The position numbers and the translations under genes were made by a program. Below are positions 17,076 through 23,970 of a stretch of 64,000 nucleotides of DNA, piece after piece; positions within the stretch are counted from its first letter, which is position 1, and each line of letters begins with the position of its first letter. The stretch comes from Jaapia argillacea MUCL 33604 (lineage: Eukaryota > Basidiomycota > Agaricomycetes > Jaapiales > Jaapiaceae), in NCBI GenBank assembly GCA_000697665.1, contig KL197719.1, forward strand, positions 306,682 to 370,681, given 5' to 3'. The notes beneath the pieces were generated by a model that was not told the origin of the DNA, did no database searches, and saw nothing but the letters and a program-made list of their open reading frames with translations.

Positions 17076-17171
17076 TGTCAGCCATGAAAGAAGTCTCCCC
17101 TGGTCCATAACAATCGGCCGTTGCCCATCGAGACTGGTCGGGCGCTGGCTGACATCCGCCTGGGTTATATC
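17076..17171 (+). promoter_or_regulatory. Promoter module of family gene A (inverted 9-mers + TATA)
   Basis: A distal TGTCAGCCA (17076-17084) and a proximal TGGCTGACA (17146-17154) are exact reverse complements, 61 nt apart. TATA follows 11 nt after the proximal site (17166-17169, in TTATATC), and the ATG is at 17216. The same order, orientation and TATA spacing recur upstream of paralogs B and C. A factor binding the 9-mer as an inverted pair is inferred, not shown. Confidence 0.6.
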
Positions 17172-17215
17172 TACACAGTTTCGATTCTCTTCCTCGCTCG
17201 TACAGCTCGACCATA

Positions 17216-18471
17216 ATGTTGTCGCTCATCAAATTCGTAGCCTCCATCTTTGGAACTGTACGCCAGTCTTGGACTTCGATCACGTCCCTCCGCGCCTTGC
17301 GTCCTGCAAAATCAGCTGCAGTCACCAGGACCACCCCCGTCGAGTCTACTCCGCTCAAGTCCATTCTCGTAAAGCTCTCCACCTCCATGACGGTTAATAT
17401 CGATGTCCAAGAGTCTTCTATCTCACATCAGCTCCGTATGTTCTTCCTCCGACCGTGTCACTCAGGCCGCGATTGACTGACATGCCATAGCGTCAGCCGA
17501 TATTTCATCCCCTTCCCGCTCTAGGAAGGGAATGCGTATGTTGCCGGCCAGGCCTAAGAACTGCATGCTATCACCCAAGACGCCAACTCGTCTACCCCGT
17601 TATCTGTCTTGTTCCAAGTCGTTACCAGGGCATATCGAAGCGTTAGCGATCCCCGACGACAAGTCGGTTCAAGGTCTACAAGACGCTACCATTGCCAGCA
17701 TCCGCGATAGTGTGTGAACATTGTTTTCGGTCTTGATTTATGTTGACATCCCCTCAACCAGGTTTTACCCGCCAAAGCGATTTTATTCCAAAATCACCCC
17801 CATCTCCTACCCCCTCCGACTCTTCAACAACCTCCTCGTATTCCAGCGAGTCCACCACTCCTCCTACCACACCCCCAGCCACGTCCTTCGACATCCCCGA
17901 TCCTATCATCCACATTTCCAGAGGTCAGAATAATGAAGACCTCGATATCACCGACGAGTACTACCGCAATGGATTTCATTCCAACGGCATCGTCGAAGAA
18001 GACCAAATCCAACACTCCATCCTCGCCGCCTCAGCCATCATCACCAACTCGACCTCACCCAATTCGTTCCGCCCGCTTCCGATAAGAGTACCCAGCGCAG
18101 CTGAGAAGATGAGAATCCAACAACAGCTCGCTAAATCGTCGCAGCCACGGCCGAGGTCGGCCTCCCGATCAGGTGATTTCGATCCCAAGTGCGATGAGGA
18201 GCTTAAGAAGAAAGCGAGGAGGATTAGTGGGACTTTGAGACCGCTGTTGCTGCCTATGGTGGTGGAGGCTAAGAGGGAGTCGGTTGAGTGGGGGAAAGGC
18301 TTGAAGGGAAAGGGGAGGCGGATATCTTGTATGGGAGGGGCGCCGGGCTTGGGGTTGAGTCTTGCAAAGGTGGAGATGGGTTACCACCAACAGCTGGAAA
18401 GGAGGAAGGAGAACGACCGTGACTTTGGTGATTGGGATGAAGAGGCTTTCATTGGAATGTATGTTTTATGA
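17216..18471 (+). CDS. Unrecognised paralog family, member A
   Basis: Three exons (17216-17435, 17491-17709, 17762-18471) give 382 residues; both introns are phase 1. No known domain is recognised. Visible parts, in order: a hydrophobic/amphipathic N-terminus (MLSLIKFVASIFGTVRQSW), a linker with TTPVESTPLKSILVKLSTS, the exon 2/3 junction reading ASIRDSFTRQSDFIPKSP followed by PSPTPS and a serine tract, DLDITDEYYRNGF, IQHSILAASAIITNS, RVPSAAEKMRIQQQLAKSSQ, a basic stretch, the block LRPLLLPMVVEAKRES, and a C-terminus WDEEAFIGMYVL. Each block has a counterpart in member C and several in B. The Pro-directed Ser/Thr sites suggest a phosphorylated, largely disordered protein; function is unknown. 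Confidence 0.85.
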
Positions 18472-19745
18472 GGAGTGTCGTGGCAGGAGGGCGGGATGCC
18501 TTTGAGTTCGATCTTCAGACTGCCGGCTGTATCATTTATTCTGTAACGTCCAGTCCGTCTTCGTTGTTCTTTCGTGGTTGGATGTAGAGTCTGCGTATTC
18601 TCTCGTCGACCGTATGTTTTTTAGCCGTTTTGCATGCTGTATTGGTTTGGATGATGATCGTCACGTCTTTTATGAATTTATGACCCTTATTTGTTACATC
18701 CTTCCGGAATATCTGAAGATGGGGGGCCCTGGTTCCGCCGATTGTTCAGATGTTCTTCTGTAATGACCCAAACTCCACCCATAGTCGAAGCGTCGGCATC
18801 AGGCTGAACACGTCCCGGAGCGCCTCTGAGCAGGTTCTAGCCAGAGAATTCCAACTCCCATTCGCGGGTTTGAGTGACTCGAGGGAGTCGACATGGGCCC
18901 TCCCACGTTTGAGCCGTCATCGTCGAATACCATAAATCGTTGTTGTATCCCTGCTATCTCCCTCTGAGCCGTTTCAGTTCTCTCCCCTTGTCTTCTACCA
19001 AGCACATTGTTGACCCGAACGCGATGTGCGGAGAAACGAAGGGTGGATCAACAGGGGGCTCGGGAATCCCAAGCCTACTGGGAGGATCTCTTGCAGATCC
19101 GCAGAGATTCGCTCATCACGAACCACACACCCTCGAGAATGTCCTTTGAACTTGAAGTTCCTAGTATCGAAAGCTTGGCGTGGGGACGTTGATCAACATC
19201 TGCTAAAGCGCCAAGGATTCGATAGGAGTCCGAGAGATGCGTAAAAGTTACCGGAGATGGAGATGGGGTGATTGGATTTGGGTGTACAAAATTACACCCA
19301 GGTTGAACGTTGAACAGCGATGGCAGAGCGATTGTGGTGTGAGAGAAGGGACCAGCTGGAAAGGCTTATAACTCTTCAGGTTCTGGGGGTTCCGGTATTT
19401 GCAAGTTTTATTGCGAGTAGCGGTAGACGAGAATGTACGACTTTCATTTCTACAATGTTGTCCTGTCAAGTTCCCGATTTGTTAACTACTGAATATCGGG
19501 GATATCAGCAAGGGAATCGGAGCAAGAGCATGGTGAACGAGTCGAAGGACGGTGTCACCGCGTGGATCCAGCATGAATGTGTCGAACATCGCGCTCAATG
19601 GACGGAAGTAATCAAGATACCGCACAAGACAAATAGGAAAAAGTACAATATCCTTGTACGTGTAAAGACCAGAAAAGAAACCGGCCAAGACGACGTCGGG
19701 AACATCCCTACAGACACTCAGAATCTCAACTCTACTCTCCTCAAC
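18472..19745. other. Intergenic between A and B, no confident gene
   Basis: Genes A (plus) and B (minus) converge here. Short frames on both strands lack any signature. The longest, plus strand 19320-20012, runs antisense into the third exon of B and is best explained as a shadow. The GGTTGAACGTTGAAC tract near 19300 is the only repeat noticed. Confidence 0.5.
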
Positions 19746-20881
19746 TCACTCCCTCGGCAAACCCAACTCCAAATCAATCCCCTCCCTCCTCGTCTCCACC
19801 ACCATCGGCAAGAGCAACGGGTGCAAAGCGTCCACCTTCTTGACCCTCTTCACCTCATTCTGTCCCAAGTTCTTGTACATCGTGTTTTGGCGCCCAATCG
19901 GTCCTCCTGCAAGACGCGAGGACTCCAAGTCTGTTGTACCAGGCACCTTAGGAAAAGCAGCGAGGATACTTCTAATCTTGTCGTCGTCATCTTCTGCGTT
20001 ATAGGTCAGTGAGAGACGGGAAGACTTCTTGGTGCGGGTATGAGGGATGTTGCTGCGAATGGCGGATGGTGGTAGGTCGAAAGACAAGTTGCGAGGAGTG
20101 GTTGGTGAAGCGGTGGAAGTAGTGGAGCACGAAGACGATGAAGACGTGGAGAGGGTGGGCGAAGGGGGGGAGTTTGGCGAGTAGACAGTCTTCTGAGTGT
20201 TTTGACCTAGGATAGTTTAAAACAGATTGAAGATAATTAGAGTGTTGGGGCTTACCGATATGAAGTTTCGTCAAGGCGGGATGTTGAATAATATTCACGT
20301 TGGTAGGAGGTGAACGAGCGGAAGGAACTTTGGGTGGAGTAACTGTCTTGGCGGTGCGGACGACGTTCGGTTTTGGAATGGGGAAGCTCGGGTTCCTGCG
20401 CAAGCTTCGCTTGACCCTCTTCGGGATCGGAGTAAATATATCTGCAGGAGCTGGCAAACAATGTCACCTCACAGCCATTCGAGGTAGTCAAGAGCAGATA
20501 CTGACTTGGGGGAAGGGAAGGGGAGACGTAAGGCAGGTTTGCTTCGAAGTCATCCTGGATCGCTCTCTGTTTGGCGGCTTCTACGACGGAGTTGCTCGGT
20601 GTTGCTGATTGCTGGCTGACAGTGGCCACTGTGGATAACGATGGAGATCCCACATTGGTGGCGGCAATGAGACCGATGAGTGAGGCAGCAGATGCGGGAG
20701 TAGGCACAGTGGTCACCGGGGTTGATGGCGACGCAGAGCACTGGGAGGGCGTAGAAGCAGTGGCTTGTAAATGCAAAGATGACTCCTTGGGGCGAACACA
20801 GAGAAGAGATAAGAGTGAGGAGCAGATCATTCGAACCGAGCTGAAGAGCGACCCGAAGAATGTGGTGGTGGTGAACATCAT
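19746..20881 (-). CDS. Unrecognised paralog family, member B (divergent, shorter C-terminus)
   Basis: Three exons (20881-20506, 20450-20256, 20206-19746) give 343 residues with the same two phase-1 intron positions as A and C. Shared blocks: a hydrophobic start (MMFTTTTFFGSLFSSVRM), DDFEANLPYVSP before intron 1 (DLEAGLPYLSP in C), TPADIFTPIPKRVKR after it, PNSPPSPTLSTSSSSS at the start of exon 3, KIRSILAAFPKV, and LHPLLLPMVVETRREG near the end. It lacks the terminal WDEE.FIG block and the DITD.YY block of A and C. N-terminal half is unusually rich in Ser, Thr, Ala and Val. No known domain; function unknown. Confidence 0.82.
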
Positions 20882-20920
20882 GGGAGTAGGCCGTTAGAGA
20901 TAGAGGAGCGCATTGCTGCT

Positions 20921-20962
20921 CTTATATTCCCTTGGGATGTCAGCCAGAAGGTATGGCTGACA
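20921..20962 (-). promoter_or_regulatory. Promoter module of family gene B
   Basis: In gene orientation the distal site is TGTCAGCCA (20962-20954), then 7 nt, then proximal TGGCTGACA (20946-20938). TATA begins 11 nt later (20926, in ATATAAG), and the ATG is at 20881. The order and orientation match A and C; only the gap between the two sites differs. Here the two sites form a near-perfect interrupted palindrome. Confidence 0.6.
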
Positions 20963-22431
20963 CTCACGTCGGTTCAGAATAAAATCATTTCCCATTGCGA
21001 AGGGTCAAGACTTTACGAAGTCAACTGGAGGAATGCGCTCTCGGGGCGTCCGGCAATTATTTCCCGTGCGGAACCATTGGTTGAACGAGAGTCTTGGATA
21101 ACTCGAATGGTGGGGTCGAAAATCAAGCGGTCACAGATTGTGAAACAATCTGCAGAGGAATACATAGTAGTGTTCTCCGATCGCGAAGTTAATTCCGTAT
21201 GCATTGCCGCAGAGTCCAGAGATGTTCTTGGGCAAAGTCAAAGAGGAGGAAACACGAAGGAACATCGTTGCCCGCTGAATCGTGCCGTGGCAGTTGACCC
21301 GAAGTAACCACGTGAGTGGCGGGAGGCGCGTCGGGATCACGTTTTCTCACGATCATCATCCTTGTGACCGTCCAGCGACCAACCAGCGACAGGACAAGCA
21401 GGAACAAGTTCCCAAGTTATTATACCGCTCGTCCCCTCCTGATGTCTCCACATTTCACTCGGGATGGAACTCAATGTGCACCAGCTGATAGCAATTCTTC
21501 GGTTCAAAAGTCTGCGATCTCTTCAACCGAGAGCTGAAGCGGTGGCCCTCCGCATGGATGATGGGGATTCACCCCACGCTTGGCGTTTCAGTACTTCACT
21601 TCCAGCGGAGACGATCCTCGATTTGACGCTCGTCAACTTCGTTCACGCTTCTCGATCGTGTTCCCCACTTTGGCGTTTAGATCCACAGCACAAGCTCCTC
21701 TGGAACATATGATACGTATATGTCACCGCCGGCTCTCCTGTTGCACCCTACGACAGCTCTCACCGGGATTCGTCATGTTCGCTCGGAGATGGCGGACCTC
21801 CCCGAACGGAGTGCTCGCCCACTTCATCTCATGATCAGGGTTATGTACGGACACTCTCCCAGACCCTGCATCGAACCTGGTTGCCGCCTCGATATTACCG
21901 AGTTATCCCCTGGGATCTTGTCTACCGCATTTCTGTATCCAAGCGACACGCGCTGAAATCTTATATTCGCCGCTCTCTTGAACTCGTCTCCTTTTTCCAG
22001 CACCATCTGTCCATGCCAAGCCCAGTGAATGATCGTATTTCATCACAATGACATCTCATCACCACCGACGAACGACATCCTCCAATGATCCACCGGCACC
22101 TTCCTCAAGAACCCTCCACCAAATCGTTAGAGCCGCAGAAGACCACCCCCAACCAATTTGCGAACGAATCAATTCGGAAGCCCATTTTATCGAGCTACAA
22201 ATGGAAGAGGTACTACAAAGTTGTGTATAATACTGCAGATAATAACGATGCTAATACGATAGTGGTAACACTAGAACGACACTAAGATAGAGGAAACCCG
22301 AACTAAAGGCGATACAGTAGATAACTCGTACAAAAGCGAGACAGTTAATGAAGCATACAGTAGAAGCACATATCCAAGTACAAACCGATGAGAAACCCTC
22401 ATGGTCGAAATCAAAGCGCTCCGTCGAGATC
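20963..22431. other. Intergenic between B and C; possible unassigned coding stretch
   Basis: B and C are both on the minus strand. The plus strand between about 21441 and 22047 holds several overlapping open frames with coding-like composition and possible splice sites, for example one ending with SKRHALKSYIRRSLELVSFF before a stop near 22047. No family is recognised and I could not settle a single model. A second short plus frame (22048-22230) is also unassigned. Confidence 0.35.
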
Positions 22432-23797
22432 CTAGAGGGCGTATGCTCCAATGAACTCCTCTTCATCCCATCCTCCAATCCCCTCTTCCTCATCCCACTC
22501 TTCCTCCCCCTCCCCCTCTATGCATATACGAACACCATCTTCCAAGCCACCCAACGCCAATCCCAACCCAACCAAACTCTCACAGCTCTCCTTCACCTCC
22601 TTCCCCGAACCAACCGACTCCCTCTTCACCCTATCCACCACAATAGGCAACAACAAAGGCTTCAACGAGCTCGTCCTCTTCTCTTCCTCTGTCATCTGAG
22701 ACCCTTGGAAAGGGTTGGGATTCTTGAACGTATTGTGTGGTGGCGCGAGGAAACTCGGGCCCGACTTTGGCTTCAACTTTGGTTTGGGGACGAGGAGAGT
22801 GCGGAGAGAGGATGATTGGGAAGTTTTGGCAAGTTGTCTTTGAATCCGAATCTTTTCAGATACGGTAGGAATCTTGACAGGATAATGTCTGAAAGCTGCA
22901 GGAGTCTTGGAGGCGTTCATAATATTGTTTCTGGTTGTGGATCGAATACTATTCGAGACCATAGCCGACGCTACGAGGATGGAATTTTGGATTCCCTCTT
23001 CTTCCCCTATAGTGGAGTAGGATGCGTAAACGGGGATGGAGAAATGGGAACGGGTTTGATAGTAGTGGTCTGTAATGTCTTGGTCTTCGTCCGAATGGAT
23101 AGTAGGAGATGTTATTTCGAATGAGGGGGTTGGAGGGGTAGCTGGTGGGGACGAAGAGTTGGATGACGATGAAGAGCTTGATGGTGTCGGCGAAGGGGGT
23201 GACCTGGGAACGAATTCGTTCATCTGGGCAAAGCCTGTGTGGTTTTAAGTCGTCGTCGGCTGCGACGAGAGGCGAGGAACTTACTGTGACGGATGCTGGC
23301 GTCATCGGGGATGTTGAGGGAGTGAACGTACTCTGACGATGCCGCGGAAAGCAGAATGCTCGATGGCGGTTCGGCAGCTAGGTTTGCAACGCGGCCAAGA
23401 ATGTGCTCATGGGATCGCTGTTCGTGAGCGCCGGGTGAAGACTTTGGAGGAGTCTTCTTGGGCTTGTGAGGCGTAGGAGTCCAGATATTTGAAGCTCAAG
23501 TGACAAGTCAGCTACGAGCAAGGATAGCAACGCGAAAGAACGCTTACGAGGGGAGAGGTAAGGGAGGCCGGCCTCGAGGTCGCGTTCCACGGTCTGTGAC
23601 GTTGTGACGTTAACCAAGATCGGTTTGACGGGGGTGGTCTTGACTGGTGAGGTGGAGGAGCCAGTAGTGGAGACAGAGACGGAGACAGGAAGACAGGTGT
23701 CCTTATCGGCGGCGCGGAACAAAGAGTGAGAGACGAAAGATGACCAGGCAGCACGAACAACGTCGGCGACGGTGGCGAAGAACTTGGCAAAGAACAT
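22432..23797 (-). CDS. Unrecognised paralog family, member C
   Basis: Three exons (23797-23548, 23494-23285, 23234-22432) give 420 residues; both introns are phase 1, as in A and B. Blocks shared with A: KTTPVKPILVNVTTSQTV, IPDDASIRHSFAQMNEFVPR, SPPSPTPSSSSSSS, DQDITDHYYQTRSHF, IQNSILVASAMVSNS, KIPTVSEKIRIQRQLAKTSQ, LKPLLLPIVVDRVKRES, and a C-terminus WDEEEFIGAYAL. The start is the ATG of MFFAKFFATVADVV; an upstream TTG is not needed. The last 40 residues before the terminal block are very acidic (EGEGEEEWDEEEG). No known domain; A and C are closer to each other than to B. Confidence 0.85.
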
Positions 23798-23846
23798 AGT
23801 GGTCAAATGCTAAGGTTGGGAGATGCGACACGGATGGGAAGTGGAG

Positions 23847-23970
23847 TTATAAACAGTGGCGATTGTCAGCCATGGTGGAGAGCTCGGTGACGATAGAGTG
23901 CAAGTGGGTGACACCCGCCGACAGTTGACGCCGCCCAAATCGCAAGAAACGGGCTTCTCTCTGGCTGACA
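23847..23970 (-). promoter_or_regulatory. Promoter module of family gene C
   Basis: In gene orientation: distal TGTCAGCCA (23970-23962), 89 nt gap, proximal TGGCTGACA (23872-23864), TATA 12 nt later (23851, in TTTATAAC), ATG at 23797. The arrangement matches the modules of A and B. Confidence 0.6.

Follow-up and report, generated by a model that had tools for sequence, protein, structure and literature searches.

Three related genes in a 64,000-nucleotide (nt) stretch of the Jaapia argillacea MUCL 33604 genome, here termed A, B and C, carry upstream of their start codons an inverted pair of one 9-mer, with the distal copy reading TGTCAGCCA and the proximal copy TGGCTGACA in gene orientation, and the proximal copy is held at a nearly constant distance from a TATA sequence. 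The whole stretch, referred to as the window, covers positions 306682-370681 of contig C11, and the genome searched comprised 43.7 megabases (Mb) in 95 contigs. We interpret the pair as a cis-regulatory promoter module private to this gene family, putatively bound by a single factor at a distance of about two helical turns before TATA, and assign this interpretation a probability of roughly 0.8. The module is real and its sites are probably under selection. Judged from sequence, co-regulation by one factor of A, B, C and a fourth family member, D, is likely.

An inverted site pair at fixed distance from TATA

In gene A, on the forward strand, the distal site lies at 17076-17084 (reverse complement with flanks, CATGGCTGACATC) and the proximal site at 17146-17154, with the TATA core (17166-17169) 11 nt further on and the ATG 50 nt beyond the first base of that core, from which the distance to the ATG is also counted in B and C. 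Genes B and C are on the reverse strand. The B sites are at 20954-20962 (distal) and 20938-20946 (proximal), followed after 11 nt by the TATA core (20923-20926) and 45 nt further on by the ATG. In C the distal site is at 23962-23970, the proximal site at 23864-23872 and the TATA core, after 12 nt, at 23848-23851, with the ATG 54 nt further on; a middle site with one mismatch, TGTCACCCA, lies between the two at 23905-23913. The preliminary description had reported the inverted pair upstream of all three genes, and all six exact sites were found again, as were its proximal site-TATA gaps of 11, 11 and 12 nt and its inter-site gaps of 61, 7 and 89 nt in A, B and C.

The exact 9-mer occurs seven times in the window, where 0.63 copies were expected, and none of 100 shuffles reached seven. 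Six of the seven copies make three inverted pairs, one for each gene; the seventh, absent from the preliminary description, a TGTCAGCCA at 20613-20621 on the reverse strand, falls within the B coding sequence and is probably incidental. When the 200 base pair (bp) promoters of A, B and C were dinucleotide shuffled, a 9-mer in common appeared in 0 of 1000 trials, while the real promoters each hold it twice.

The whole genome was searched for the pair relaxed to 8-mers, TGTCAGCC-N3 to 95-GGCTGACA, which gave three matches, those of A, B and C, against none for the reversed control at the same gap. About 0.12 pairs were expected at a gap of 0-95 from the 233 and 232 single exact sites, an expectation that covers exact 9-mer pairs and not the relaxed 8-mer pairs. 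The exact TGGCTGACA-N11-TATA arrangement was found twice genome-wide, in A and B, the spacing in C being 12. With the gap opened to N4-20, TGGCTGACA and TATA occurred together 14 times against 13 for the control, and a gap of 11 or 12 was found in the family's three genes alone.

Two other explanations of the pair were considered. A small mobile element with terminal inverted repeats would also show up as short inverted repeats near several genes. All three of the genome's pairs at gap 3-95 belong to one gene family, however, and they differ in inter-site gap (7, 61 and 89 nt) while the site-TATA distance is fixed, so that a mobile origin is hardly credible. A role for the pair as an RNA hairpin within the 5' leader is also very improbable. 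In A, B and C alike the minimum-energy fold does bring the two arms together, and the B hairpin, with its loop of 7 nt, has unusual stability (z -2.6; equally good folds in 3/200 shuffles), but the folds of A (z -1.1; 26/200) and C (z -0.9; 36/200) are not unusual. Moreover, each pair is situated upstream of its TATA box and should therefore not be transcribed from it.

Under the proposed mechanism, TGGCTGACA, always in the same orientation, would be bound by a sequence-specific DNA-binding factor, with the site starting 20-21 bp before the start of TATA. This distance of about two helical turns would let the bound factor touch the machinery assembled at TATA from one fixed face. The further site or sites, in opposite orientation and at variable upstream distance, would accommodate a second molecule, which probably adds occupancy. 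Duplicated genes would have inherited the module, and selection would have preserved both the sites and the distance from the proximal copy to TATA as most of the surroundings decayed.

Family members D and E and the decay of the flanks

Genome searches that used the C, A and D last exons as queries recovered two more family members, D and E, in tandem on contig C3; matches beyond the five members A-E had E-values of at least 0.0785. The D promoter holds three copies with one mismatch each, TGTCAGCCT at -137, TGGCTAACA at -106 and TGGCTGACC at -79, two of them in the TATA-proximal orientation. TATATAAA contains two overlapping TATAs, and 11 nt separate the end of the proximal TGGCTGACC from the first of them. 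Since D was retrieved by protein similarity and not by the motif, its site and TATA spacing bear out a prediction made out of sample. Four of the five family members thus bear the site beyond chance (exact in A, B and C, with one mismatch in D), and its position relative to the core promoter is constrained, at 11, 11, 12 and 11 nt from TATA in A, B, C and D, respectively.

Across these four promoters the TATA-nearest site reads TGGCTGAC(A/C), with CTGGCTGACATCC common to the proximal sites of A and B, and the outermost site, allowing one mismatch, reads TGTCAGCC(A/T). The middle copy of C has the same orientation as the outermost sites and aligns with the TGTCAGCCT of D inside CGGGTGTCASCC. 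Both TGGCTAACA and TGGCTGACC fall in what looks, on inspection by eye, like a tandem repeat (about 27 bp) in the D promoter (L015:7825-7892), which suggests that a site was gained there through local duplication.

In E (L015:3873-5070, contig C3) the similarity switches from frame 3 to frame 2, and no GTRNG donor was listed between the two stretches of similarity. An intron is therefore not evident, and E looks like a broken copy, probably a pseudogene, or else an assembly error. The 260 nt upstream of E contain no TATA, and the best sites there, GCTCAGCCA at -170 and CGGCCGACA at -81, each have two mismatches.

To compare the flanks, promoters were aligned with the sites masked. Under permissive scoring, the A-C score exceeded those of all 200 shuffles and the C-D score those of 197 out of 200, and the remaining eight pairs among A-E were unremarkable; the start of C was placed 2 nt off in this alignment, and the shuffles were left unmasked, which makes the test conservative. 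Under stricter scoring, with TATA also masked, 3/400 and 0/400 segments drawn at random from the window attained the A-C score, C-D was not significant (52/400 and 87/400 segments reached its score) and pairs involving B were within chance. The sequence common to A and C is a block, TTGGCA...CCA.GCGCAGAACCA, immediately upstream of the distal site, and that common to C and D is GAGCTCTCYACCA, adjoining the proximal site. The earlier statement that the flanks are otherwise unlike thus holds for B and for most pairs, but not for the A-C block and, marginally, not for C-D. Because these flanks are in part common, the module was partly inherited and not independently gained.

Fourfold degenerate third positions of the last exons were used as a neutral reference. 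They agree at 16 of 50 positions between A and C and at 12 of 48 between C and D. Neutral sequence is near saturation, although not fully in every pair, and the conservation of the sites exceeds it, with fourfold positions near random for A-C and C-D and most masked flanks not alignable beyond chance. As fourfold sites are little above chance in most pairs, the retained 9-mers point to selection. Selection rather than recent copying had been proposed in the preliminary description. The near-random fourfold agreement of A-C and C-D, the restriction of the pair to genes A, B and C and the site kept by D favour the first half of that proposal; the contrast it draws has to be softened, since part of the flank is common and the module is partly inherited.

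Passive inheritance, in which the sites would be functionless remnants of one ancestral promoter copied along with the genes, would account for common sequence lying directly beside the sites, the A-C block at the distal site and the C-D GAGCTCTCYACCA at the proximal one, and for fourfold agreement that is partly above random. At the fourfold divergence of A-C and C-D, however, unselected 9-mers should not persist intact in three genes. B has the sites without a significant common flank, and the spacing to TATA is held while the inter-site gap ranges over 7-89 nt. We consider passive inheritance unlikely.

Several observations weigh against a selected, factor-bound module. As inherited copies that still have some flank in common (A-C and, marginally, C-D), the promoters do not count as independent. 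Fourfold agreement, highest in A-D (20/43), amounts to 95/263 over all ten pairs, where composition alone predicts 0.26. Each of the three near-copies in D has a mismatch, and its second, overlapping TATA starts 13 nt from the proximal site. B is a weak family member by sequence, retrieved with A at an E-value of 0.0075 and not with C or D, so that another equally diverged member could have been missed. Genome-wide, the 9-mer count of 465 compares with expectations of 426, 359 and 481 under Markov models of order 1, 2 and 3, whose training sequence included the window and the sampled loci and which are therefore biased slightly upward. When up to one mismatch is tolerated, the site-N11-TATA arrangement occurs at close to background frequency (42 times, compared with 35 for the control), and no additional targets outside the family support a factor.

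Search for further targets and a candidate factor

Counting the 9-mer against expectation had been suggested as a check in the preliminary description, which named a background frequency in unrelated promoters as refuting, and by this measure, with promoters not separated from other sequence, its frequency is that of background genome-wide. The reversed control, for comparison, occurs 224 times. Among 28 sampled sites of the 465, all on contigs C1-C3, each was the sole exact copy within its 1-3 kilobases (kb). A genome-wide regulon read through the exact 9-mer is accordingly not supported, given the background count, the single sampled sites and the near-background site-N11-TATA arrangement; a degenerate form of the motif may still be read more widely. 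A background count argues against a wide regulon of this kind, not against a module private to the family.

The form TGGCTGAC-N10-14-TATAWA returned six rows representing five distinct sites, against none for the control; one of these is D, and TATAWA is not matched by the TATA sequences of A, B and C. Between -500 and +300, the other four show no second site, even with one mismatch allowed. One of the four, L063, precedes an open reading frame (ORF) that by eye resembles a transporter. Among the loci listed in the second-site check, 13 of 14 have a single site, D being the exception.

A pair relaxed to 7-mers with a gap of 3-33 was found at 10 places against 2 for the control, with a TATA within 40 nt at that of B alone. 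This excess may be explained by the 9-mer being twice as common as its reversed control. Short near-palindromes built as GTCAGCC-spacer-GGCTGAC occur at three loci (L075, L079 and L080), none with a TATA. Beside the near-palindrome, L075 and L080 look alike by eye, and blastn at 1e-5 gave no match among the ten loci. The one-mismatch search also returned two near-identical stretches ending in CCTTGTGCCCATATA, two kb apart (C3:404012 and C3:405974).

Literature matches listed for the 9-mer in both orientations were screened by title and abstract opening, and none looked related. Combining GGCTGAC with fungal promoter terms gave an Aspergillus match that proved to be a primer sequence.

A narrower form of the family-private module would name its factor as a homeodomain protein of the TALE class, with a TGACA core, for example a relative of the mating-type protein HD1. 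TGACA or TGTCA is present in every exact site, and the TALE sites described in the part of PMC3132772 consulted are often inverted and variably spaced, which makes such a factor a lead. The likeness extends to the core, the several copies, their inversion and the variable spacing. The module differs from those sites, which concern human proteins, in its extra 5' TGGC, conserved before TGACA and outside the TGACAG half-site, and in its sixth base, which is G in one of the six promoter sites (C distal), the single complete TGACAG. The proximal TGGCTGACC of D is also without TGACA. In the part of PMC11006913 covered, TGACA was not found as a whole word. As the attribution is made through resemblance alone, we regard a TALE factor as doubtful.

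A near-dedicated factor is a tentative idea, to which we give a small but not negligible chance. Its high-affinity targets in the genome would be limited to this fast-evolving, largely disordered protein family. Such a factor would recognise the inverted 9-bp pair with its TATA-phased proximal copy, and the sites would have been lost as E decayed.

Factor sites close to TATA are a general class in co-regulated fungal gene families and clusters. The module resembles them in having a short site repeated over several promoters, one copy of which stands at a fixed distance from TATA, and extra copies opposite in orientation and variable in distance. It differs in that it seems limited to one gene family, with no second target set and no known factor matched. 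Control via common promoter sites is of an ordinary, known kind, of which this is a clean example.

In Aspergillus nidulans, the portion of PMC4046813 consulted places TATA motifs mostly 30-45 bp upstream of the transcription start site (TSS) and reports two putative promoter motifs peaking near -70 from the TSS. On these figures, a fungal factor site could plausibly stand about 20 bp before TATA. The A. nidulans motifs, CACGTG and ACCGCC, with their peak at -70 and TATA near -45, lie at a comparable distance upstream of TATA; according to the same portion of the source they differ in sequence and are spread over many promoters, whereas the present module appears private to one family.

The module is a small and sharply defined cis-element with natural variants, including inter-site gaps of 7, 61 and 89 nt, TATA spacings of 11 and 12 nt and a family member, E, without it. 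This series would permit direct tests of how TATA-phased sites are retained after gene duplication, and the module could serve as a probe for what turns on this uncharacterised gene family, both the factor and the condition.

Gene models, encoded proteins and another reading frame

The gene models were made by eye and are approximate. Gene A spans 17216-18471 on the forward strand in about three exons, starting at the ATG at 17216. On the reverse strand, gene B spans 19746-20881 (ATG 20881) and is the window's most diverged family member, and gene C spans 22432-23797 (ATG 23797), where a strict intron pattern detected no intron.

Pfam gave no match at E-values up to 1 for four pieces of exon sequence from A, B and C, the first exons of A and C lying outside the scan; the last exon of A likewise had no Pfam match. 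A family profile gave no match in PDB at E-values up to 1. The AlphaFold model of the C last exon, built with three sequences, had a mean predicted local distance difference test (pLDDT) score of 48, with 181 of 263 residues below 50, and this exon is thus predicted to be mostly disordered. Short motifs are common to A, B and C (window 17216-23797), including SPPSPT and LKPLLLPMVV. WDEEEFIGAYA is found in C and in similar form in A, and B is without it.

Elsewhere in the window, an ORF at 57682-58371 matches a solved peptidoglycan deacetylase structure, 3qbu, with an E-value of 2.1e-22.

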